A stretch of DNA of 64,000 bases from Sphingobium xanthum (GTDB lineage Bacteria > Pseudomonadota > Alphaproteobacteria > Sphingomonadales > Sphingomonadaceae), in assembly GCF_019737615.1 (NCBI RefSeq), contig NZ_JAHKKS010000001.1:310001-374000 (forward strand), written 5' to 3'. The notes under the pieces were generated by a model. That model was not told where the DNA came from. It saw nothing but the letters and a program-made list of their open reading frames with translations, and did no database searches. Below are positions 33,332-44,337 of this stretch, in pieces (within the stretch, counting starts at the first letter, position 1; each line of letters opens with the position of its first letter). A program made the translations under genes and the position numbers.

Positions 33332-34621
33332 TCACCATTTCTTTTCGAACTTGTTGCGCAGGTAGATGGCGATGCTGTTCATCGTCAGCAGGAAGATCAG
33401 CAGCACGATGATTGCCGCCGATGTCTTCTCGATGAAGCCCTTGCCGACCTCGTCGGACCACAGGAAGATCTGGACGGGCAGCACGGTCGCCGGATCGGTG
33501 ATTCCGCCCGGAGGCGAAGCCACGAAGGCGCGCATGCCGATCATCAGCAGCGGTGCGGTCTCGCCGAGCGCGCGGGCCATGCCGATGATCGTGCCGGTGA
33601 GGATGCCGGGCAGCGCCAGCGGCAAGACATGGTGGAACACGACCTGTATCGGCGACGCGCCGATGCCGAGGGCGGCATCGCGGATCGACGGCGGCACGGC
33701 CTTGATGGCATTGCGTCCGGCGATGACGATGACCGGCATGGTCATGAGCGCGAGCGTCATGCCGCCGACGAGCGGCGCCGAGCGCGGCAGGTGCATCATG
33801 TTCAGGAAAATGGCGAGGCCAAGCAGGCCGAAGATGATCGAGGGCACGGCCGCGAGATTGTTGATCGACACCTCGATGATGTCGGTCCAGCGATTGCGCG
33901 GTGCATATTCCTCCAGATAGAGGGCCGCGAACACACCGATCGGGAAGCTCAGCGCCAGCGTGATCGCCATGGTCAGCAGCGAGCCCTTGAGCGCTCCCCA
34001 GATACCGACCACGGTCGGGTCCGTGCCGTCGCTGGAGGTCAGGAAGCCGCCATTGAAACCGGTCGAGAGTGCGCGGGCCTGTTCGAGTTTTACAACCGCT
34101 GCCTCGTCGGCCTCGCTGCCGTCGCTCTTGGCAGCGAGGTCGATGCCGGCGGATGCGGGGACCGTGATCGTCACCTTGCGCGTCAGAATGCCGGGGTCGG
34201 CGATGATCGCCTTGCGCAGGGCCGCGACCGCCCCGGATGAAATATAGTCGTCGCCATCCTTGCCGAAGGCGGCCTGCGCCGAACTTTCGATCACTTGCGG
34301 CAGATTGGCGTTGGCCAGCACCTGATCCGGATTGGTCGAGAGCATCGCGGGGTCGATCATGATCGGTGAACGGGGAAAATCGACCGGCAGCTTGATCTGC
34401 GTGCTCATGAAGCCGCGCGCGCCATTGGCGCCCATCGAGATCAGCAGGAAGGCCAGAAAGCCCGCCGAGATCAGCACCGCGCAGAGACCCAGTAGCCTGA
34501 AACGGCGCTCGGCTGCGTAGCGAAGCGCAATGCGCCGGCGCATCGCCTCGCCATTCCAGTCAGTCGGCGCGCGGGATGTGGCAACAGGTGTCGCGGACAT
34601 GGGGAGAACAGCCTCGCTCAT
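33332..34621 (-). CDS. pstA: Phosphate ABC transporter permease PstA with enlarged periplasmic domain
   Basis: 429 aa, about 130 more than E. coli PstA. Span 1 ([20 protein letters not shown]) is followed by a soluble insert (about 70-205) with [20 protein letters not shown], resembling the DUF3333 region of alphaproteobacterial PstA. The permease core with five more spans comes next. The EAA loop is [24 protein letters not shown], and SIRDAAL precedes it. It overlaps pstC by four bases (ATGA). The insert probably lies in the periplasm near PstS. Confidence 0.94.
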
Positions 34622-36000
34622 TCATAGGCCTCGCGATATTTCTTCACGACGCGCAAGGCGACGATGTTGAGGAGCAATGTCACGATGAACAGCACGAGGC
34701 CGAGCGCGAAGGCTGCGAGCGTCTTGGCACTGTCGAACTCCTGATCGCCGGTCAGCAACTGGACCATCTGCGTGGTCACCGTCGTCACGCTGGCGAAGGG
34801 ATTGAGCGTCATATTGGCAGCGAGGCCCGCCGCCATCACCACGATCATCGTCTCGCCGATCGCGCGGCTGACGGCGAGCAGGACGCCGCCTACCACGCCG
34901 GGCAACGCCGCGGGGATCAGGACGCGCCGGATCGTTTCACTGGTCGTGGCGCCCATAGCGAGACTGCCGTCGCGCATCGACTGCGGCACGGCGGCGATGC
35001 TGTCATCGGCCATCGAGGAAACGAATGGGATGATCATGACGCCCATGACGAGGCCGGCCGCGAGCGCGCTTTCTGACGATGCGCCGGGGATACCGATCCC
35101 GGCGGCGAGATTGCGCAGTGCGGGCGCCACGGTGAGCGCGGCGAAATAGCCATAGACCACGGTCGGTACGCCTGCGAGCACCTCGAGCATCGGCTTCATC
35201 CACTTGCGTGTCCGTGGTTTGGCATATTGGGTGAGATAGATGGCGCTCATCAGCCCGAGCGGGATGGCGACGATCATGGCGATGATCGCGCCGATGAAGA
35301 TCGTGCCCCAGAAGAGCGGAACGGCACCGAATGCGTCTTCATTGCCATAGCCCATGGCTGCCGATTGCGGACTCCACTTGAGACCCAGGAGGAAGTCGAG
35401 CGGATTGACCATCGAGAAGAAGCGCAGCGACTCAAAGAGCAGCGAAGCGACGATGCCGGCGGTCGTTATGATCGCGATGAGCGACGCGAGAAGCAGCGTC
35501 CACATGACGACGCGCTCGACACGGTTGCGCGCGGTGAACGAGGGGCGGACGCGCGAAAAGGCATAGGCGCCGCAGGCAAAGGCGAGGATGGCGGCGAGCA
35601 CGGCGCCGATTGTCGAATAGCGGCCATAGGCGGCGCGATAGGGCTCGACCAGCGACATCGACTGCGGATTGAAGGCGGCGGTCTGCGCGCCGCTGGCGAT
35701 CGCGCCGGCTTCGGACAGGATTGCGCCGCGGGAGAAATCGTCGGCCGGAAGCGACTGTGCGGCAGGCGAGGTCAGCACGCTGTCGAGCACGAGGCTCGGC
35801 ATGACATTCGCCCAGACCGCCAGAAAAGCCAGTGCCGGCAGGGCTGTCCACAGCGCCACATACCAGCCATGCTGGCTCGGCCGGCTGTTGGTCGCGAGCC
35901 GGCCGGCCTCGATGCCGAGGCGTGTCGCTCGGGCACGCGCCACGATCCACCCGATGAGGGCGAGCGCGACTATGATCATCACGATCATCATGCCGGTCAT
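34618..36000 (-). CDS. pstC: Phosphate ABC transporter permease PstC
   Basis: 460 aa, also longer than E. coli PstC (319). Two N-terminal spans flank a periplasmic segment (about 68-125, LVLDSVLTSPAAQSLPADDF). A third span and the permease core follow, with WGTIFIGAIIAMIVAIPLGL and the EAA loop SMRDGSLAMGATTSETIRRV. It forms the membrane channel with PstA. It is separated from pstS by a 76-base gap containing a perfect hairpin, so its expression may be lower than that of pstS. Stop overlaps the pstA start. Confidence 0.94.
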   Translation of the reverse strand: MTGMMIVMIIVALALIGWIVARARATRLGIEAGRLATNSRPSQHGWYVALWTALPALAFLAVWANVMPSLVLDSVLTSPAAQSLPADDFSRGAILSEAGAIASGAQTAAFNPQSMSLVEPYRAAYGRYSTIGAVLAAILAFACGAYAFSRVRPSFTARNRVERVVMWTLLLASLIAIITTAGIVASLLFESLRFFSMVNPLDFLLGLKWSPQSAAMGYGNEDAFGAVPLFWGTIFIGAIIAMIVAIPLGLMSAIYLTQYAKPRTRKWMKPMLEVLAGVPTVVYGYFAALTVAPALRNLAAGIGIPGASSESALAAGLVMGVMIIPFVSSMADDSIAAVPQSMRDGSLAMGATTSETIRRVLIPAALPGVVGGVLLAVSRAIGETMIVVMAAGLAANMTLNPFASVTTVTTQMVQLLTGDQEFDSAKTLAAFALGLVLFIVTLLLNIVALRVVKKYREAYE

Positions 36001-36035
36001 CTTGCCGTGTTCCCCTGGATTCGCGGGCGGAAGGC

Positions 36036-36064
36036 GGCATGGCGAGCGCGCGGCTCGCCATGCC
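36036..36064 (-). terminator. Perfect stem-loop between pstS and pstC
   Basis: A 12-pair stem, GGCATGGCGAGC against GCTCGCCATGCC, with a five-base loop and no mismatch lies in the pstS-pstC gap. No T-run follows on the minus strand. It is more likely an mRNA-stabilising or partially attenuating structure, raising PstS over the permease, than a full terminator. Confidence 0.6.
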
Positions 36065-36076
36065 GATCGATGGCCA

Positions 36077-37120
36077 TCACTTCAGGTCTGCGCCCGTCAT
36101 GACGGTGAGATTGGTGACCACGTCGCTATTGGTCTTGCGAACATCTTCCGGTGCCACGACCATGCCGCGCTTGGCGAGCGCGCCGTCGGGATTCCAGTTC
36201 TTGGCGATCGCTTCGACATAAGCTTTGAGGCCCGGCACCGCAGCGACATGCGCCTTCTTCACATAGATGTAGAGTGGGCGGGCGCCGGGATAGGTGCCGT
36301 TGGCGACCGCATCATAGGTCGCCTCGATGCCGTTCAGTGGAATGTCCTTCAGGGTCGCACGATTGGCGTCGAGGAAGGAAAAGCCGAAGATGCCGACCGC
36401 TTGCGGGTTTGCCGAGAGCTTCTGGACGATCAGGTTGTCGTTCTCGCCGGCATCGACATAGGCACCGTCCTCGCGCACCTGGGTGCAGAGCTGCTTGTGC
36501 CTGGCTTCGTCGCTGCCCTTGAGAGCCTTCATCGCCGGGTCGCTCTCGCAGCCGGCGGTCAGCACCAGCTCTGCAAGCGAGTCGCGCGTGCCGGAGGTGG
36601 AAGGCGGTCCGAAGACGGAAATGGCGACGGCGGGCAGGGAGGGGTCGACATCCTTCCAGGTCTTCGCCTTGTTCTCGCCTTTGCCATAGGGATTGGCGGC
36701 GAGCGCCTCATAGACCTGCTTCGTGGTGAGCGAGAGACCAGGGCCTTCCTTGGCTTCAGCGAAGGCAAGGCCGTCGAGGCCGATCTGGACTTCGACGACA
36801 TCCTTGACGCCATTGGCCTGGCACTGATCGAACTCGGACTTCTTCATGCGGCGCGACGCATTTTCGATGTCGGGGTGCTGGCTGCCGACGCCGGCGCAGA
36901 ACAGCTTCATGCCCGCACCGGTGCCGGTCGACTCGATGATCGGCGCCTTCATTCCCGGATTGGTCTGGGTGAACAGACCCACGGCTTCCTGCGCGAACGG
37001 ATAGACGGTCGATGAGCCGACGGCCCGGATCTGGTCGCGTGCGGCGCTGGCGCCGCCGCCCGACTGACCCTGGCAAGCTGCGAGCGCGAACACGGATGCC
37101 GCGACGAATGCGTAACGCAT
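36077..37120 (-). CDS. pstS: Phosphate-binding protein PstS (lipoprotein)
   Basis: Periplasmic phosphate receptor, 347 aa. The signal peptide ends in a lipobox (ALAAC, Cys16), so it is probably anchored in the inner membrane rather than free. The binding-site loops are GSSTVYPF near residue 36, STGTGAGMK near 65 and GTRDSL near 175 (in FGPPSTSGTRDSL), the PstS family pattern. GGAGAATCTC precedes the ATG. A triple Pho box lies about 65 bases upstream, and this is the likely main promoter of the pst transport genes. Confidence 0.95.
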   Translation of the reverse strand: MRYAFVAASVFALAACQGQSGGGASAARDQIRAVGSSTVYPFAQEAVGLFTQTNPGMKAPIIESTGTGAGMKLFCAGVGSQHPDIENASRRMKKSEFDQCQANGVKDVVEVQIGLDGLAFAEAKEGPGLSLTTKQVYEALAANPYGKGENKAKTWKDVDPSLPAVAISVFGPPSTSGTRDSLAELVLTAGCESDPAMKALKGSDEARHKQLCTQVREDGAYVDAGENDNLIVQKLSANPQAVGIFGFSFLDANRATLKDIPLNGIEATYDAVANGTYPGARPLYIYVKKAHVAAVPGLKAYVEAIAKNWNPDGALAKRGMVVAPEDVRKTNSDVVTNLTVMTGADLK

Positions 37121-37185
37121 GGAGAATCTCCTGGGGCGATTTGCGTGGGACCCGGAATCGCCTTGAACCGGGTTCGTCGCCGCAA

Positions 37186-37214
37186 TGTGACGGTTTGATT
37201 ACGCTTTTGTGACA
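37186..37214 (-). promoter_or_regulatory. Triple Pho box upstream of pstS
   Basis: On the minus strand, TGTCACA-AAAG-CGTAATC-AAAC-CGTCACA is three seven-base half-sites at 11-base spacing. It lies in the phoR-pstS gap and overlaps the last codons of phoR. Predicted PhoB tandem binding site controlling pstSCAB-phoU-phoB. Confidence 0.75.
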
Positions 37215-38479
37215 TCGCCCGGCATGCCGGCCGGGATCATCTCTGCTTCACTGCCGCCGCCCTTGCGAAACTGCGGCAATTCCACCCTTACGGTCGTGCC
37301 GACACCGACACTGCTATCGAAATTCAGAACGCCGCCATGTCGCTGCACGATATGTTTGACGATCGCCAGACCGAGACCGGTGCCGCCCATGGCGCGACTG
37401 CGACTCGAATCGATTCGATAAAAGCGTTCGGTAAGGCGCGGCAGATGTTCGGCGGTGATGCCGTCGCCTTGGTCGGCCACGGCCACTTCGATCATATCGT
37501 CGTCCAGCGCCCTCGCCGAGAGCGTGACCGGAGTGCCCGGCGCGCCATATTTGAGCGCATTACTGACGAGATTGTGGAGCAGCTGGCTCATCTGCGCGCG
37601 GTCGGCGCGAATGGCCGGGACCGTATTGCTGACGTCGACGACGATGTCCTGCGCGCGCTTGTTCTGGCTCTGGCGAAAGACCGCGACGACTTCCTCGACG
37701 AGAGGCAGCAGGGCGACCGGCTGCTCGGGCGCGCGATATTTGTCCGCCTCGATGCGGGAGAGCGACATCAGGTCATCGACGAGCCGCTGCATGCGCCGCG
37801 CCTCGCCTTCCATGATCGTGAGGAAGCGCTCTCGCGTCGCGGCGTCGGCCCCAGCGACGGGGTCCCGCAGGGTTTCGACGAAGCCCAATATGCCGGCAAG
37901 CGGCGTGCGCAATTCGTGGCTTGCATTGGCGACGAAGTCGACCCGCATGCGCTCGGTCGCCTGACGCCCGCTCTGATCGAACAGGAAGACCAGCAGCCGG
38001 TCGTCGCGCAGCGGCTGGATGTCGAGCTCCCAGCTTTGCTCAGCCGTGCCCAGCCCGACGATCTCGACGCGGGCGGGCGCGTCCAGAGTCTTGGGACCGG
38101 TCAGAAGATCGATGGCGGCCGGGTGACGCAGCGCAAGGCGCACATCCTGGCCGATGATGTGGCGGCCGAGGAGGGCCAGAGCGGCCTCGTTGCAATATTC
38201 GATCCGCCCGCGATGCGCGATGAAGCAGGGATGCGGGAGTGCCTGGAGCAGCGCATCGATCTCGTCCAGGCTGGAAACGCTTTTTGCCGGTGACAGCATT
38301 GGCGCGCGCGGAGAAGCTGTGCGTCGTTCCAGCGCATCGAACAGCATGGCCATGGCGAACAGCCCTGCAATGGCACAGGCGAAGGTTGCTTCCCAATTCC
38401 GGGTGAGCGTGAAAACCATCACGGCGGCCGCCGTCCCAGAAAGGAACAGAATCCATATCGAGCGATCGATGCGACCCAT
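37199..38479 (-). CDS. phoR: Phosphate regulon sensor kinase PhoR
   Basis: Membrane histidine kinase, 426 aa. Two N-terminal spans (about 8-26 and 31-47) with almost no periplasmic loop are as expected for a kinase sensing via PstSCAB/PhoU. A PAS-like domain follows (70-170, LLQALPHPCFIAHRGRIEY). The H-box is FVANASHELRTPL with phospho-acceptor His188. The N-box is LLHNLVSNALKYG, with G-boxes VADQGDGI and GGTGLGLAIVKHIV. It begins the seven-gene pho/pst array. AGGGGG lies eight bases before the ATG. Confidence 0.95.
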   Translation of the reverse strand: MGRIDRSIWILFLSGTAAAVMVFTLTRNWEATFACAIAGLFAMAMLFDALERRTASPRAPMLSPAKSVSSLDEIDALLQALPHPCFIAHRGRIEYCNEAALALLGRHIIGQDVRLALRHPAAIDLLTGPKTLDAPARVEIVGLGTAEQSWELDIQPLRDDRLLVFLFDQSGRQATERMRVDFVANASHELRTPLAGILGFVETLRDPVAGADAATRERFLTIMEGEARRMQRLVDDLMSLSRIEADKYRAPEQPVALLPLVEEVVAVFRQSQNKRAQDIVVDVSNTVPAIRADRAQMSQLLHNLVSNALKYGAPGTPVTLSARALDDDMIEVAVADQGDGITAEHLPRLTERFYRIDSSRSRAMGGTGLGLAIVKHIVQRHGGVLNFDSSVGVGTTVRVELPQFRKGGGSEAEMIPAGMPGDVTKA

Positions 38480-38579: not shown

Positions 38580-39005
38580 ATGAACGAGGGCAAAGGGCCG
38601 GACGCGCAGCACGAGCCTGGCCAGGATGAGGCCGGGCATGCGGGTGCGACCTCGCGCCGCCAGCTTCTGCGCCTGAGCGCGGCCGCCGGCGCAGTCGTGT
38701 TGACCGTGCGGCCGGGCATTGCCCAGGCGGCGACGTCCGTTCTGGCTTGTGAGATACCGGTGCCCGATCCCGCCCGTGCCGGTCAGGCGGTTGCCCCCGA
38801 CGGCACGATGGTGCCAAAGGGCACGAGCGGATCTTTCCCGGGCGGGCGGACCTTCACCGGCGAGCAGGTGCGCACTGGCCTTCGCGGCGGCAATCTGCCC
38901 GGCACCAGCTACCAGGAGAGTCAGGCCTATCTCAACTATGTGCGCCGCCTGCAGCATGGCCGCAGCGGCTTTACCTGCTACGCCTCGCTCATGGCCGCGC
39001 GCTAG
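38580..39005 (+). CDS. Small Tat-signal protein at the head of the HPr-rel-A cassette
   Basis: 141 aa, family not recognised. The N-terminal 25 residues are hydrophilic, then a twin-arginine motif SRRQLLRLSAAAG and a hydrophobic core end at GIAQA, predicting Tat export of a folded or cofactor-bearing product. The mature part is only about 92 residues. It is rich in Gly, Ser and Thr (GTSGSFPGGRTFTGEQVRTG), with one cysteine near each end (LACEIP and FTCYAS). It is followed after 21 bases by a PqqD-like gene, a kinase and a nucleotidyltransferase, all on the same strand. That position makes it a candidate substrate of those enzymes, an inference only. AAGGGCAG precedes the ATG. Confidence 0.75.
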   Translation: MNEGKGPDAQHEPGQDEAGHAGATSRRQLLRLSAAAGAVVLTVRPGIAQAATSVLACEIPVPDPARAGQAVAPDGTMVPKGTSGSFPGGRTFTGEQVRTGLRGGNLPGTSYQESQAYLNYVRRLQHGRSGFTCYASLMAAR

Positions 39006-39026
39006 GGCCGCACGGGTTCGCCGGCG

Positions 39027-39311
39027 GTGGCCGTGACCTACCGGGCCGAGGCGCCTGACCAGATCATTGTCGAACGTCTCGGCGCCATCGACGCGCTGTA
39101 TCATCGCCGTTCGGGCACGACGCACCTTGTCGCCGCGCCGGTTCCGCAAATCCTCGAAGCCCTGGGCGAAGGGGCCACGGACGTCGCCGGCCTGCTCGCG
39201 CGCCTCGCGGCGCGCTTCGATCTCGACACTCCGGATGACGAAGCGAAAGCGGCATTGGAACAGCGGCTGGCGGAACTGATCGACCTTGGCCTGGTCCGGG
39301 GCGAGCGCTGA
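39027..39311 (+). CDS. PqqD-like protein of an HPr-rel-A system
   Basis: 94 aa. PqqD folds are RiPP recognition elements that bind leader peptides. Here LGAIDALYHRRSGTTHLVAAPVPQILEALGEG and LLARLAARFDLD ending ELIDLGLVRGER follow the PqqD pattern (a strand pair plus three helices). The start is GTG at 39027 or GTG two codons later at 39033. An HprK-like kinase follows after eight bases. This is the arrangement called HPr-rel-A in protein-family databases, whose function is unestablished. Its partner peptide is unknown. The upstream Tat protein is the nearest candidate. Confidence 0.82.
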   Translation: MAVTYRAEAPDQIIVERLGAIDALYHRRSGTTHLVAAPVPQILEALGEGATDVAGLLARLAARFDLDTPDDEAKAALEQRLAELIDLGLVRGER

Positions 39312-39319
39312 GCTTCGGC

Positions 39320-40189
39320 ATGCGGCATCAGCTTGGCCTCGCCGTCGGGCCGGCGACCTTTCGGATCGGCTCGGCCTGGCGTGGGCCGATCGATGCGCTG
39401 GCGCGGCTGTATGCGGCGTATCCGCCCATCGACTTCGCGCGGCGCGTGCCGGATTTTACGGTCAGGCTCCAGCCGGTGCAGCCGTGGCGGCGTTTCATCC
39501 GCTCGTCGATCTTCATTGCCGGCGATCACATGCTGCCGGACGCCGCGCCGATGGCGCTGGAGCATGGCCTGCTGGCAGCCGAGATGGGGATGAACCTGCA
39601 GATGGCGCTCGGCTGGCGCAGGCATGTGCTGCTCCACGCCTCCTGCGTCGAGAAGGACGGCAAGGCGCTGGTCATCACCGGCGAGTCCGGCAGCGGCAAA
39701 TCGACGCTTGCGGCGATGCTCGGCGAGCGCGGCTGGCGCCTGATGGGCGACGAGTTCGCGCTCCTCGATCCGGCGAGCGGCATGGTGTTCGCCTTCCCGC
39801 GGCTCGTGAGCCTCAAGAACGAGGCCATTGATATCGCGACTGCCGGCATCACGCCGGAGCGGATCGGCCCTCGCCTCGAAGGCACGCCCAAGGGCGCGAT
39901 CCGCCATCTCGTGCCGAATGCCGAGGCGATCGCGCGCATGGCCGAGCCTGCGGTGCCTCGTTTGCTGTTGCTGCCGCGCTACGGCTTTGCCGAGGCGCAC
40001 CGGCCGGTCGAGCAGGGCGAGGCGTTCGTCCGGCTGACCGAGGCATCGACCAATTATATCGCGCTGGGGGAAGCGGGCTTCGGCGCGCTGGTGCGGTTCG
40101 TGCGCACTGTGCCGGCGGTCGCGCTCGACTATCCGGACAGCGCGACCGTACTTGCCGCTGTCGAGGCACTGTGGGGCGAGGTCGCATGA
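39320..40189 (+). CDS. HprK-related kinase A
   Basis: 289 aa related to the C-terminal catalytic domain of HPr serine kinase. P-loop ITGESGSGKSTLA (about 118-130) is followed by the GWRLMGDEFALLDP segment, which supplies the conserved Asp as in HprK. The first 110 residues are family-specific. HLLHASCVEKDGK-like sequence just before the P-loop is typical of this kinase group. It lacks the HprK N-terminal domain, and no HPr or PTS gene is nearby, so the substrate is unlikely to be HPr. Related kinases in lasso-peptide clusters phosphorylate the peptide's serine. It overlaps the nucleotidyltransferase by four bases (ATGA). Confidence 0.88.
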   Translation: MRHQLGLAVGPATFRIGSAWRGPIDALARLYAAYPPIDFARRVPDFTVRLQPVQPWRRFIRSSIFIAGDHMLPDAAPMALEHGLLAAEMGMNLQMALGWRRHVLLHASCVEKDGKALVITGESGSGKSTLAAMLGERGWRLMGDEFALLDPASGMVFAFPRLVSLKNEAIDIATAGITPERIGPRLEGTPKGAIRHLVPNAEAIARMAEPAVPRLLLLPRYGFAEAHRPVEQGEAFVRLTEASTNYIALGEAGFGALVRFVRTVPAVALDYPDSATVLAAVEALWGEVA

Positions 40190-41208
40190 GCGCCGCTCTG
40201 CTCGCGGAGACGCTGATCGACCCGGGGCTCGTCACGCGCTTCGATGCGCCGACATGGACAGCGCTCCTCACGGCAGCGCGCGCGGAAAGGCTGCTGGGGA
40301 CGATCGCGGACAAGCTGGACGGCCTTGCCATGCCTCCCGATGTCGCCGCGATCCTCGCGGACACCCGCGTGGACGCGCGGCGCGACCGGCAGCAGGCGCT
40401 TTGGGAAATCGACAGGGCCATGGTCGCGCTCGCCCCGCTCGATTGCCCTGTGGTGCTGCTCAAGGGGAGCGCTTTCGCGGCCGCCGGACTGCTCGCCGCG
40501 CAAGGCCGCGCGATCGGCGATCTCGACATATTGGTACCACGCGACCGGCTGGACGAGGTCGAGGCCGCCTTGCGAGGTGCCGGCTGGGAATGGGTGAAGC
40601 CCGACCCCTATGATGAGGCATATTATCGCCGCTGGATGCACGAGCTGCCACCTCTCATCCATGTCGAGCGCGACCGGATGATCGACGTGCATCACACGAT
40701 CCTGCCGCTGACCGCGCGACCACGCCCGGATGCGGCGGCGATGATTGCCGATGCCATGCCGCTGGCAAACGGCATTTCTGTGCTGCGGATCGACGACATG
40801 CTTTGCCATGCTGCCGCGCATCTGATTGCCGACGGGGATATGGCGGGCGGCCTGCGCAATCTGTGGGATATTCATTGCCTGCTGATTGAGCATGGAGAGG
40901 ACCAGAGCTTCTGGAATGGCCTGGACGCGCGCTCACGACATCATCAGTTGCGCGCACCGATGCGACGGGCCGTGCGGCTGTCGCATCGCATCTTCGGAAC
41001 GGAGGTGCCCAAGGACTGGCTGGGCGGCGGCGTACTTGACGGTCTGTTCGCGGCGCGCCTGCTGACCCGGACGTCATGGGGGCAGGAAGCGCGTCCCTTT
41101 CTGCGCCTCGGCTTCTATTTCCGTTCGCACCTGCTGCGCATGCCGCCGCTCATGCTGGCGCGGCATCTCTGGACGAAATGGCGTAAAGGCTATCGGCCGA
41201 TTGGGTGA
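40186..41208 (+). CDS. Nucleotidyltransferase-family protein of the HPr-rel-A cassette
   Basis: 340 aa of the DUF1814/NTP_transf_5-like group. The core KGSAFAAAGLLAAQGRAIGDLDILVP has the GD-x-D-x-hydrophobic metal site (Asp residues in IGDLDILV). IHVERDRMIDVHHTILPL supplies the third acidic residue and the DVHH motif typical of these proteins. RIDDMLCHAAAHLI follows. Such enzymes accompany HprK-like kinases in lasso-peptide clusters, where they are thought to modify the phosphorylated peptide. Start overlaps the kinase stop. Its own stop is six bases from that of the convergent gph. Confidence 0.85.
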   Translation: MSAALLAETLIDPGLVTRFDAPTWTALLTAARAERLLGTIADKLDGLAMPPDVAAILADTRVDARRDRQQALWEIDRAMVALAPLDCPVVLLKGSAFAAAGLLAAQGRAIGDLDILVPRDRLDEVEAALRGAGWEWVKPDPYDEAYYRRWMHELPPLIHVERDRMIDVHHTILPLTARPRPDAAAMIADAMPLANGISVLRIDDMLCHAAAHLIADGDMAGGLRNLWDIHCLLIEHGEDQSFWNGLDARSRHHQLRAPMRRAVRLSHRIFGTEVPKDWLGGGVLDGLFAARLLTRTSWGQEARPFLRLGFYFRSHLLRMPPLMLARHLWTKWRKGYRPIG

Positions 41209-43731: not shown

Positions 43732-43965
43732 ATGCGTTTCCTTGCCGAACTGCCCGATGACGAGGTTGCCGAGCTCGATGCGCTTGCGCGTCGCAACAAT
43801 CGATCCCGCGCCGCCGAAGTCCGCGAAGCCGTGCGCCTCTATGTGCGAGGACGCAAGGGCAACGACTGGATCGCGCGCGGCTTTGGCTACTGGAAGGATC
43901 GGACGGATATCGGCGATGCGGTCGAGTATCAGCGCGCCATGCGCGACGACCGGGATTTCGGCTGA
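43732..43965 (+). CDS. vapB: Antitoxin, VapB-type ribbon-helix-helix
   Basis: 77 aa. The N-terminal MRFLAELPDDEVAELDALARRNNRSRAAEVREAV fits a ribbon-helix-helix DNA-binding fold (a strand, then two helices with NRSRAAEVREAV). The acidic/aromatic C-terminus would wrap the toxin. It lies six bases before the PIN toxin gene, and its ATG immediately follows the paired palindromes. Leaderless or very short-leader translation is possible, because no Shine-Dalgarno is visible. Confidence 0.85.
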   Translation: MRFLAELPDDEVAELDALARRNNRSRAAEVREAVRLYVRGRKGNDWIARGFGYWKDRTDIGDAVEYQRAMRDDRDFG

Positions 43966-43971
43966 CGCGCA

Positions 43972-44337
43972 ATGGCCGATCCGGTTTTCGACACCAATAT
44001 TCTGGTCGACTGGCTCTCGGAGCGCTCGCAGGCGGCGACCGAACTGGCCCGTTACCGGCGACACCGGATAAGCCGGATCAGCTGGATGGAGATACTGGCG
44101 GGCGAGCCGTTTGAGACGCGCGACCATATCCAGTCCCTGATCGCACCGTTCGAGGTGATCGAGGTGGACAGCCGGATCGCGGTGGCCGCCGTCGATATCC
44201 GTCATCGCTCGCGGATGAAGCTGAGCGATGCGATCGTCCTGGCGACGGCGCAGGTGAACGGCTCCATCTTGGTGACACGCAATACCAAGGATTTTCCGGC
44301 AAACATGCCGGGGATCCGAATCCCCTACACTCTCTGA
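43972..44337 (+). CDS. vapC: PIN-domain toxin VapC
   Basis: Probable Mg-dependent ribonuclease, 121 aa. All PIN acidic residues are present: Asp7 in VFDTNILVDWL, Glu40 in WMEILAG, Asp86 in LSDAIVLATA and Asp107 in NTKDFP, so the toxin looks active. Many VapC toxins cut tRNA or rRNA, but the target here is unknown. It ends 18 bases before glmS, within the otherwise housekeeping glmU-glmS interval. Confidence 0.92.
   Translation: MADPVFDTNILVDWLSERSQAATELARYRRHRISRISWMEILAGEPFETRDHIQSLIAPFEVIEVDSRIAVAAVDIRHRSRMKLSDAIVLATAQVNGSILVTRNTKDFPANMPGIRIPYTL

Follow-up and report, generated by a model that had tools for sequence, protein, structure and literature searches.

Four adjacent genes of Sphingobium xanthum raise the question of what the HPr-rel-A system, a so far uncharacterised system named by NCBI, acts upon. 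These genes lie on the plus strand of the stretch analysed here, called the window (64,000 nucleotides, positions 310,001 to 374,000 of contig NZ_JAHKKS010000001.1; coordinates below are those of the window unless a locus is named), and encode a small protein with a twin-arginine translocation (Tat) signal, a PqqD-like protein, an HprK-related kinase and a nucleotidyltransferase (NTase). The best explanation overall, to which we give a probability of about 0.66, is that they form a complete HPr-rel-A system that modifies the Tat protein encoded by its own first gene.

Gene families of the cassette

The first gene (38580..39005, plus strand) encodes the Tat-signal protein, the proposed dedicated substrate, which is 141 amino acids long and scores 18.1 bits against the Tat signal model TIGR01409 (cut-off 16.7). 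It is followed by the gene of a 94-residue protein with a GTG start (39027..39311, plus), a PqqD family peptide chaperone of the kind that serves as recognition element (RRE) for ribosomally synthesised and post-translationally modified peptides (RiPPs) and that reaches 67.1 bits against TIGR04353 (cut-off 35). The third gene (39320..40189, plus) encodes the HprK-related kinase A of 289 residues, with 215.9 bits against TIGR04352 (cut-off 200), and the fourth (40186..41208, plus) a PF14907 (NTP_transf_5) nucleotidyltransferase of 340 residues counted from its ATG, with 164.4 bits (cut-off 31.2, E 4.5e-48). The spacings between the genes are 21, 8 and -4 bases, the kinase/NTase overlap being ATGA. 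TIGR04352 (HprK_rel_A) and TIGR04353, whose full name is 'HPr-rel-A system PqqD family peptide chaperone', are the two markers of the HPr-rel-A system; both score here above their curated cut-offs and are adjacent in one operon. Judged from these marker families, the four genes make up a complete HPr-rel-A system. No paper on this system was found in the open-access literature, subscription journals lying outside the search.

A first description of the stretch, made from its letters alone (the sequence-only reading), had reported four plus-strand genes with these same gaps, a Gly/Ser/Thr-rich mature part of 92 residues with a cysteine near each end, and a locus devoid of lasso cyclase and protease. 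The coordinates of the open reading frames (ORFs) and the family scores agree with that arrangement, the mature part contains 13 Gly, 8 Thr and 7 Ser with cysteines at C57 and C133, and neither a cyclase nor a protease was found among the neighbours of the cassette.

Co-occurrence of the Tat protein with the kinase

The distribution of the cassette genes was followed in a first set of 112 loci, which are nearly all sphingomonad and include 80 named contigs, in a family sample of 151 genomes and in a phylum sample of 399 genomes (G and L numbers below designate genomes and loci). Within the 112 loci, a Tat homologue was found at 108, PqqD at 107 and the NTase at 110, several of the misses being short loci. 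Of 80 sphingomonad loci, 79 yielded a Tat gene, always on the strand of the kinase, an arrangement that is therefore not due to chance.

In the family sample, the kinase exceeded the TIGR04352 cut-off in 45 genomes and the Tat-protein profile matched 45 genomes, 44 of which were common to both sets. The kinase-bearing genome missed by the profile, G101, carries an upstream Tat protein that was found by eye and ends with ...GLTCLVSLTNNLNLHI, so that all 45 kinase-bearing genomes possess the protein (44 by profile, 1 by eye). The kinase-free match in G120 (E 1.3e-4) was discarded as spurious, since it lies inside a 673-residue frame resembling an amidohydrolase.

The kinase was detected in 61/399 genomes of the phylum sample, some of which belong to families (several in number) from other classes than that of the window. 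Another Tat profile (A2), built from distant members, matched 41 of the 399 genomes; 39 of these carry the kinase and the remaining two matches are at E 0.004 and 0.0096. The kinase-bearing genomes that A2 fails to match comprise the sphingomonads, which have their own Tat class, an exosortase-linked clade with a class II Tat protein (G481 lying outside the inspection) and G334. In almost every distant lineage that was inspected, a protein with a Tat signal is encoded ahead of the cassette. The sequence-only reading had set the adjacency of a Tat-signal gene in homologous cassettes as its test beforehand, absence from most of them counting against it; the gene is present in most, which is the opposite outcome.

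Genomes in which the cassette is split indicate which gene the Tat gene follows. Of five genomes checked in which kinase and PqqD are unlinked, four (G172, G218, G273 and G042) have these two genes on separate contigs, with the Tat gene next to PqqD. G330 encodes two Tat proteins and has two PqqD matches, paired on two contigs, and in G283 the Tat and PqqD genes lie together on the strand opposite to the kinase. The proposal that the Tat protein is the local candidate substrate is thus strengthened by its presence in 45/45 kinase-bearing genomes, by the distant lineages and by its usual linkage to PqqD when the genes are split. On this genomic evidence, the Tat protein is very probably the dedicated client of the cassette.

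A conserved serine near the C-terminus of the Tat protein

To describe conservation in the Tat protein, two alignments are used, A1 with 40 sphingomonad proteins and A2 with 26 distant ones. The N-terminal region (residues 1-49; 38580..38726, plus) contains a twin-arginine motif (R26R27) that is conserved, a hydrophobic stretch and an Ala-x-Ala near residues 46-48, all features of a Tat substrate; R27, L30, P45 and A48 are invariant in A1, and TatC was found in the window's own genome. The invariant mature residues of A1 include S53, C57, G130-F-T-C133 and S136, and those of A2 are two cysteines in the N-terminal half and C-W-x-S near the C-terminus. C57 (codon 38748..38750, plus), the first mature cysteine, is present in 108/108 homologues, is invariant in A1 and has a counterpart in A2.

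The protein ends with the motif T132-C-Y-A-S136-L (38973..38990, plus). All 108 sphingomonad homologues of the first set end with [ST]-C-[YFLW]-x-S-[LI], the serine being 4-8 residues from the C-terminus. The serine of [ST]-C-[WYFLIV]-x-S-[FLIV] is the sole mature Ser/Thr that is invariant in both A1 and A2, and this serine is also kept in G101, G005, G054, G087 and G008. Based on the conservation of this motif serine, S136 (codon 38985-38987, plus) is the proposed phospho-acceptor. In the AlphaFold model, a middle domain spanning residues ~61-120 is confident, with predicted local distance difference test (pLDDT) values of 82-94 by block, and the tail is modelled with low confidence, the block means across residues 121-141 being 68, 57 and 45. 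A comparison of the mature domain with PDB structures gave nothing better than E 2.9.

The Tat protein of G326 (L139 2688-3017, minus strand) is reduced to the signal and about 20 mature residues, STQCDTATASCLDSFNGL, in which two cysteines and S-C-L-D-S-F are kept. This protein may be a minimal substrate or a truncation; it is a single case, from a metagenome-assembled genome (MAG) that is 76% complete.

The enzymes of the cassette

The AlphaFold model of PqqD (pLDDT 92.6) shows strands followed by three helices, with the beta3-alpha3 winged helix of recognition elements, and its best fold match in the PDB is TbiB1 with its leader (E 9e-4, probability 1.00). From its linkage to the Tat gene, PqqD probably binds the Tat precursor.

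The kinase carries the Walker A motif GESGSGKST (39680..39706, plus), recognised by sequence and conservation. Residues H106, K127 (within Walker A), D144 and E145 are kept in 80/80 sphingomonad kinases and in 47/47 others. A His-Lys-Asp-Asp catalytic set is reported as a requirement of lasso kinases (PMC9266682); here, the residue following D144 is a Glu (E145) instead of Asp, the equivalence of these positions having been judged by eye. It is likely that the kinase modifies the Tat protein, and we lean, with somewhat less assurance, towards S136 as the residue on which it acts.

The active-site motif of the NTase, K93-G-S ... D112-L-D114 (40462..40527, plus), displays the G-S ... D-x-D arrangement of PF14907, and K93, G94, G111, D112, L113 and D114 are at least 93% conserved among 75 homologues. 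No solved relative was found by sequence. That this enzyme acts on the phosphate is a proposition to which we give even odds.

Alternatively, the kinase could be a variant of HPr kinase/phosphorylase whose target is HPr or another regulatory protein, the Tat gene being only co-transcribed. A weak resemblance to HprK is seen around the P-loop (TIGR00679, 25.2 bits; Hpr_kinase_C, 24.5 bits), but these scores are far below the HprK cut-offs (240 for TIGR00679) and the genome has a short HprK of its own, which contains the segment I-R-H-L-G-L and adjoins a RapZ-like gene. HPr was rejected as the target of the cassette kinase on these two grounds. Furthermore, co-transcription alone fails to explain the co-occurrence of kinase and Tat genes that are unlinked, as in G044, G124 and G230. 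We regard this possibility as very improbable.

Another candidate client, a lasso peptide of the same genome, was considered and set aside. The lasso-type locus (L215 4177-10890, genome G000, contig C21) comprises a possible precursor of 44 residues, a PF13471 protein and a cyclase-like protein, with neighbours resembling an isopeptidase and a TonB receptor. None of the ORFs read at this C21 locus encodes a kinase, and the putative precursor ends with ISND, without a C-terminal serine.

A Tat-signal protein rich in Gly, Pro and Asn (L191 7073-7495, minus strand) is encoded near a distant HprK-like match (69 bits) in G104. This might be a further pair of kinase and client.

Observations that weigh against modification of the Tat protein

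Several results count against the proposal that the cassette modifies the C-terminal serine of its Tat protein. The co-occurrence of kinase and Tat protein in the family sample (Fisher p = 8e-36) was calculated ignoring shared ancestry, and G334, a 57% complete MAG, has the kinase without any match to the Tat profiles. The Tat partner of G250 has no C-terminal motif. The class II proteins, partners of the exosortase-linked kinase clade, are longer and have in common only an RR signal, a single cysteine column and a loosely conserved SPG-[YW]-W stretch, and they do not possess the C-terminal C-x-x-S; it follows that either the target site of class II differs or the C-x-x-S motif is not the target. 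A comparison of the profiles of the Tat classes aligned the signal and the first cysteine only. A homology across clades that would span the entire mature domain was therefore abandoned as unsupported, and the likeness of the tails, which falls short of proven homology, appears to be that of a shared short motif, at the level of the motif only. Finally, the Tat gene lies 163 kb from the kinase in G044, where PqqD is still beside the kinase, and 280 kb from it in G124, and Tat, PqqD and kinase are on three separate contigs in G230. In these three genomes the genes are unlinked yet co-occur.

Some of these results would be expected if the Tat protein took part in the pathway as a partner or effector, such as a periplasmic protein that binds the product, while PqqD, the kinase and the NTase modify another peptide or a small molecule. 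The confident small folded domain of the mature part (~61-120) is unlike a peptide, the class II partners dispense with the motif, and in G044 it is PqqD and not the Tat gene that stays with the kinase. On the other hand, no small ORF other than the Tat gene recurs beside PqqD in the loci read (gene calls of at least 60 residues), and the Tat gene stays with PqqD in the four split-cassette genomes. In addition, the tail motif is invariant despite the little structure modelled there, and the reduced protein of G326 retains little beyond the signal, the two cysteines and S-C-L-D-S-F. A partner or effector role is, in our opinion, unlikely.

The phylogeny of the kinase, for its part, speaks in favour of the proposal. 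Class II Tat proteins accompany one clade of 10 rows (98/90) and class I proteins the other two clades, which are joined at 98/90. The kinase tree thus sorts with the Tat class, as expected for an enzyme and its client.

Genomic context

Distant cassettes sit in XrtA/PEP-CTERM exopolysaccharide loci, alongside TIGR03087, TIGR03088, TIGR03108, TIGR03006, PrsT and PrsK. XrtA scored over its cut-off in 41/45 kinase-bearing genomes of the family sample compared to 56/106 kinase-free ones, and it is present in the window's own genome. Because the distant cassettes lie inside such loci, the end use of the system is probably to be sought in envelope or exopolysaccharide biology, although for an exopolysaccharide or envelope role as such the chances seem to us evenly divided.

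This context suggests a more specific alternative, namely that the cassette links the Tat protein to an exopolysaccharide or another glycan through a phosphodiester at the C-terminal serine, the kinase producing phosphoserine (Ser-P) and the NTase, together with a glycosyltransferase, adding sugar, which would yield a glycan-linked envelope protein. The XrtA glycosyltransferases TIGR03087 and TIGR03088 and the amidotransferase TIGR03108 adjoin the distant cassettes, the XrtA counts given above point in the same direction, and PsmN of the pseudomycoidin pathway adds hexoses to Ser-P (PMC9266682). In addition, 22 sphingomonad loci carry an insert of ~1.3 kb that separates the Tat gene from PqqD, and the one insert read encodes a GT4 glycosyltransferase (L042 4494-5651), nearest to TIGR03088 and below its cut-off. 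Yet the sphingomonad cassette is by phoR, outside the polysaccharide locus, and four kinase-bearing genomes have no XrtA over the cut-off. We consider a glycan linkage of this kind quite unlikely.

Directly 3' of the kinase in L170 (10635-12332), a protein with tetratricopeptide repeats (TPR) and a sulfotransferase domain (PF13469) is encoded. By clustering, similar TPR/sulfotransferase proteins are also found in L172 and, alongside the NTase, in L159; such a protein thus either replaces the NTase or accompanies it.

The divergent neighbour of the cassette, phoR (37199..38479, minus), identified by family match and conservation of the neighbourhood, is given as context only. The phoR-pstS-pstC genes (34618-38479, minus) are divergent from the cassette, and phoR is present at 76/80 sphingomonad loci; this neighbourhood looks like inherited synteny. 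Control of the divergent promoter by PhoB, considered because of the phoR neighbour, was rejected, as no Pho-box enrichment was seen upstream of the Tat gene compared to random stretches. Further downstream, at 43732-44337, a ribbon-helix-helix protein followed by a PIN-domain protein constitutes a VapBC-like toxin-antitoxin pair.

Proposed pathway

According to our preferred explanation, in which the complete HPr-rel-A system modifies its own Tat protein, the PqqD-like RRE would bind the cytoplasmic Tat precursor, probably through its Tat signal region. This region would double as leader, and the precursor would be held back from export. A leader role of the Tat signal itself is suggested by the fact that no other region is as well shared among the classes; the suggestion is a weak one, since Tat signals resemble one another anyway. 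The HprK-related kinase, using ATP or GTP, would then phosphorylate the motif serine (S136), as lasso kinases do. Subsequently, the PF14907 enzyme, or a substitute for it, would elaborate the phosphate by adding a nucleotide or a sugar, in the manner of PsmN of the pseudomycoidin pathway; in relatives, a sulfotransferase or a GT4 glycosyltransferase would take part in this elaboration. The modified and folded protein would finally be released and exported by the Tat system, and a disulfide may form between its two conserved cysteines. The Tat route fits such a pathway, since the modification needs cytoplasmic nucleotides and the protein to be exported is folded or decorated.

A wider version of this scheme can be put forward tentatively, and it seems to us rather doubtful as a whole: a phylum-wide pathway in which the Tat signal serves as RiPP leader, the RRE holds the folded substrate in the cytoplasm, and an HprK-type kinase with an NTase, sulfotransferase or glycosyltransferase builds a phospho-sugar or phospho-nucleotide on the near-C-terminal serine before export and possible joining to exopolysaccharide.

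The co-occurrence of a Tat protein with this enzyme set across Pseudomonadota suggests an unstudied system that decorates one secreted protein near its tail. An uncharacterised and widely distributed cassette now has a specific candidate substrate and a specific candidate residue. The C-terminal C-x-x-S motif, the XrtA context, the class II Tat partners and the sulfotransferase and glycosyltransferase companions go beyond the sequence-only reading. If the proposed pathway is correct, folded proteins exported by Tat are also subject to RiPP-type recognition and lasso-type tailoring chemistry, and through a covalent decoration a secreted protein may be attached to an XrtA-type exopolysaccharide.

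Comparison with known systems

The names of the HPr-rel-A models cover the two markers only, and neither the Tat partner nor the C-terminal motif described here appears in them. With respect to the XrtA/PEP-CTERM loci, these are the home of the distant cassettes; the Tat proteins have not been described as members of the PEP-CTERM group, and the sphingomonad cassette adjoins phoR-pst instead.

Retention of a Tat precursor by a dedicated cytoplasmic protein has a precedent in the Tat maturation chaperones TorD, DmsD and NapD, which bind the Tat signal until maturation is complete. To our knowledge, these chaperones are unrelated to the RRE fold, and their likeness to the cassette PqqD would be functional only.

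The closest parallels are found among lasso peptides. The fold nearest to the PqqD model is that of TbiB1 (PDB 5v1v), a lasso peptide RRE protein, though the two share 20% identity. The kinase-bearing lasso systems, those of paeninodin (PadeK), ThcoK, SyanK and pseudomycoidin (PsmK/PsmN), likewise combine an HprK-like kinase, an annotated nucleotidyltransferase and a PqqD-like B1/RRE protein, and the source of SyanK is itself a Sphingobium. PadeK, ThcoK, SyanK and PsmK phosphorylate the C-terminal serine of lasso precursors (PMC9266682; PMC7533575). Lasso precursors and the Tat protein of the cassette thus both have an invariant serine at or near the C-terminus, which is C-terminal in the former and 4-8 residues from the end in the latter. 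The cassette differs in that it contains neither an asparagine-synthetase-like cyclase nor a B2 protease, and in that its proposed client is not a lasso precursor but a folded protein that carries a Tat signal and would be exported by the Tat system.

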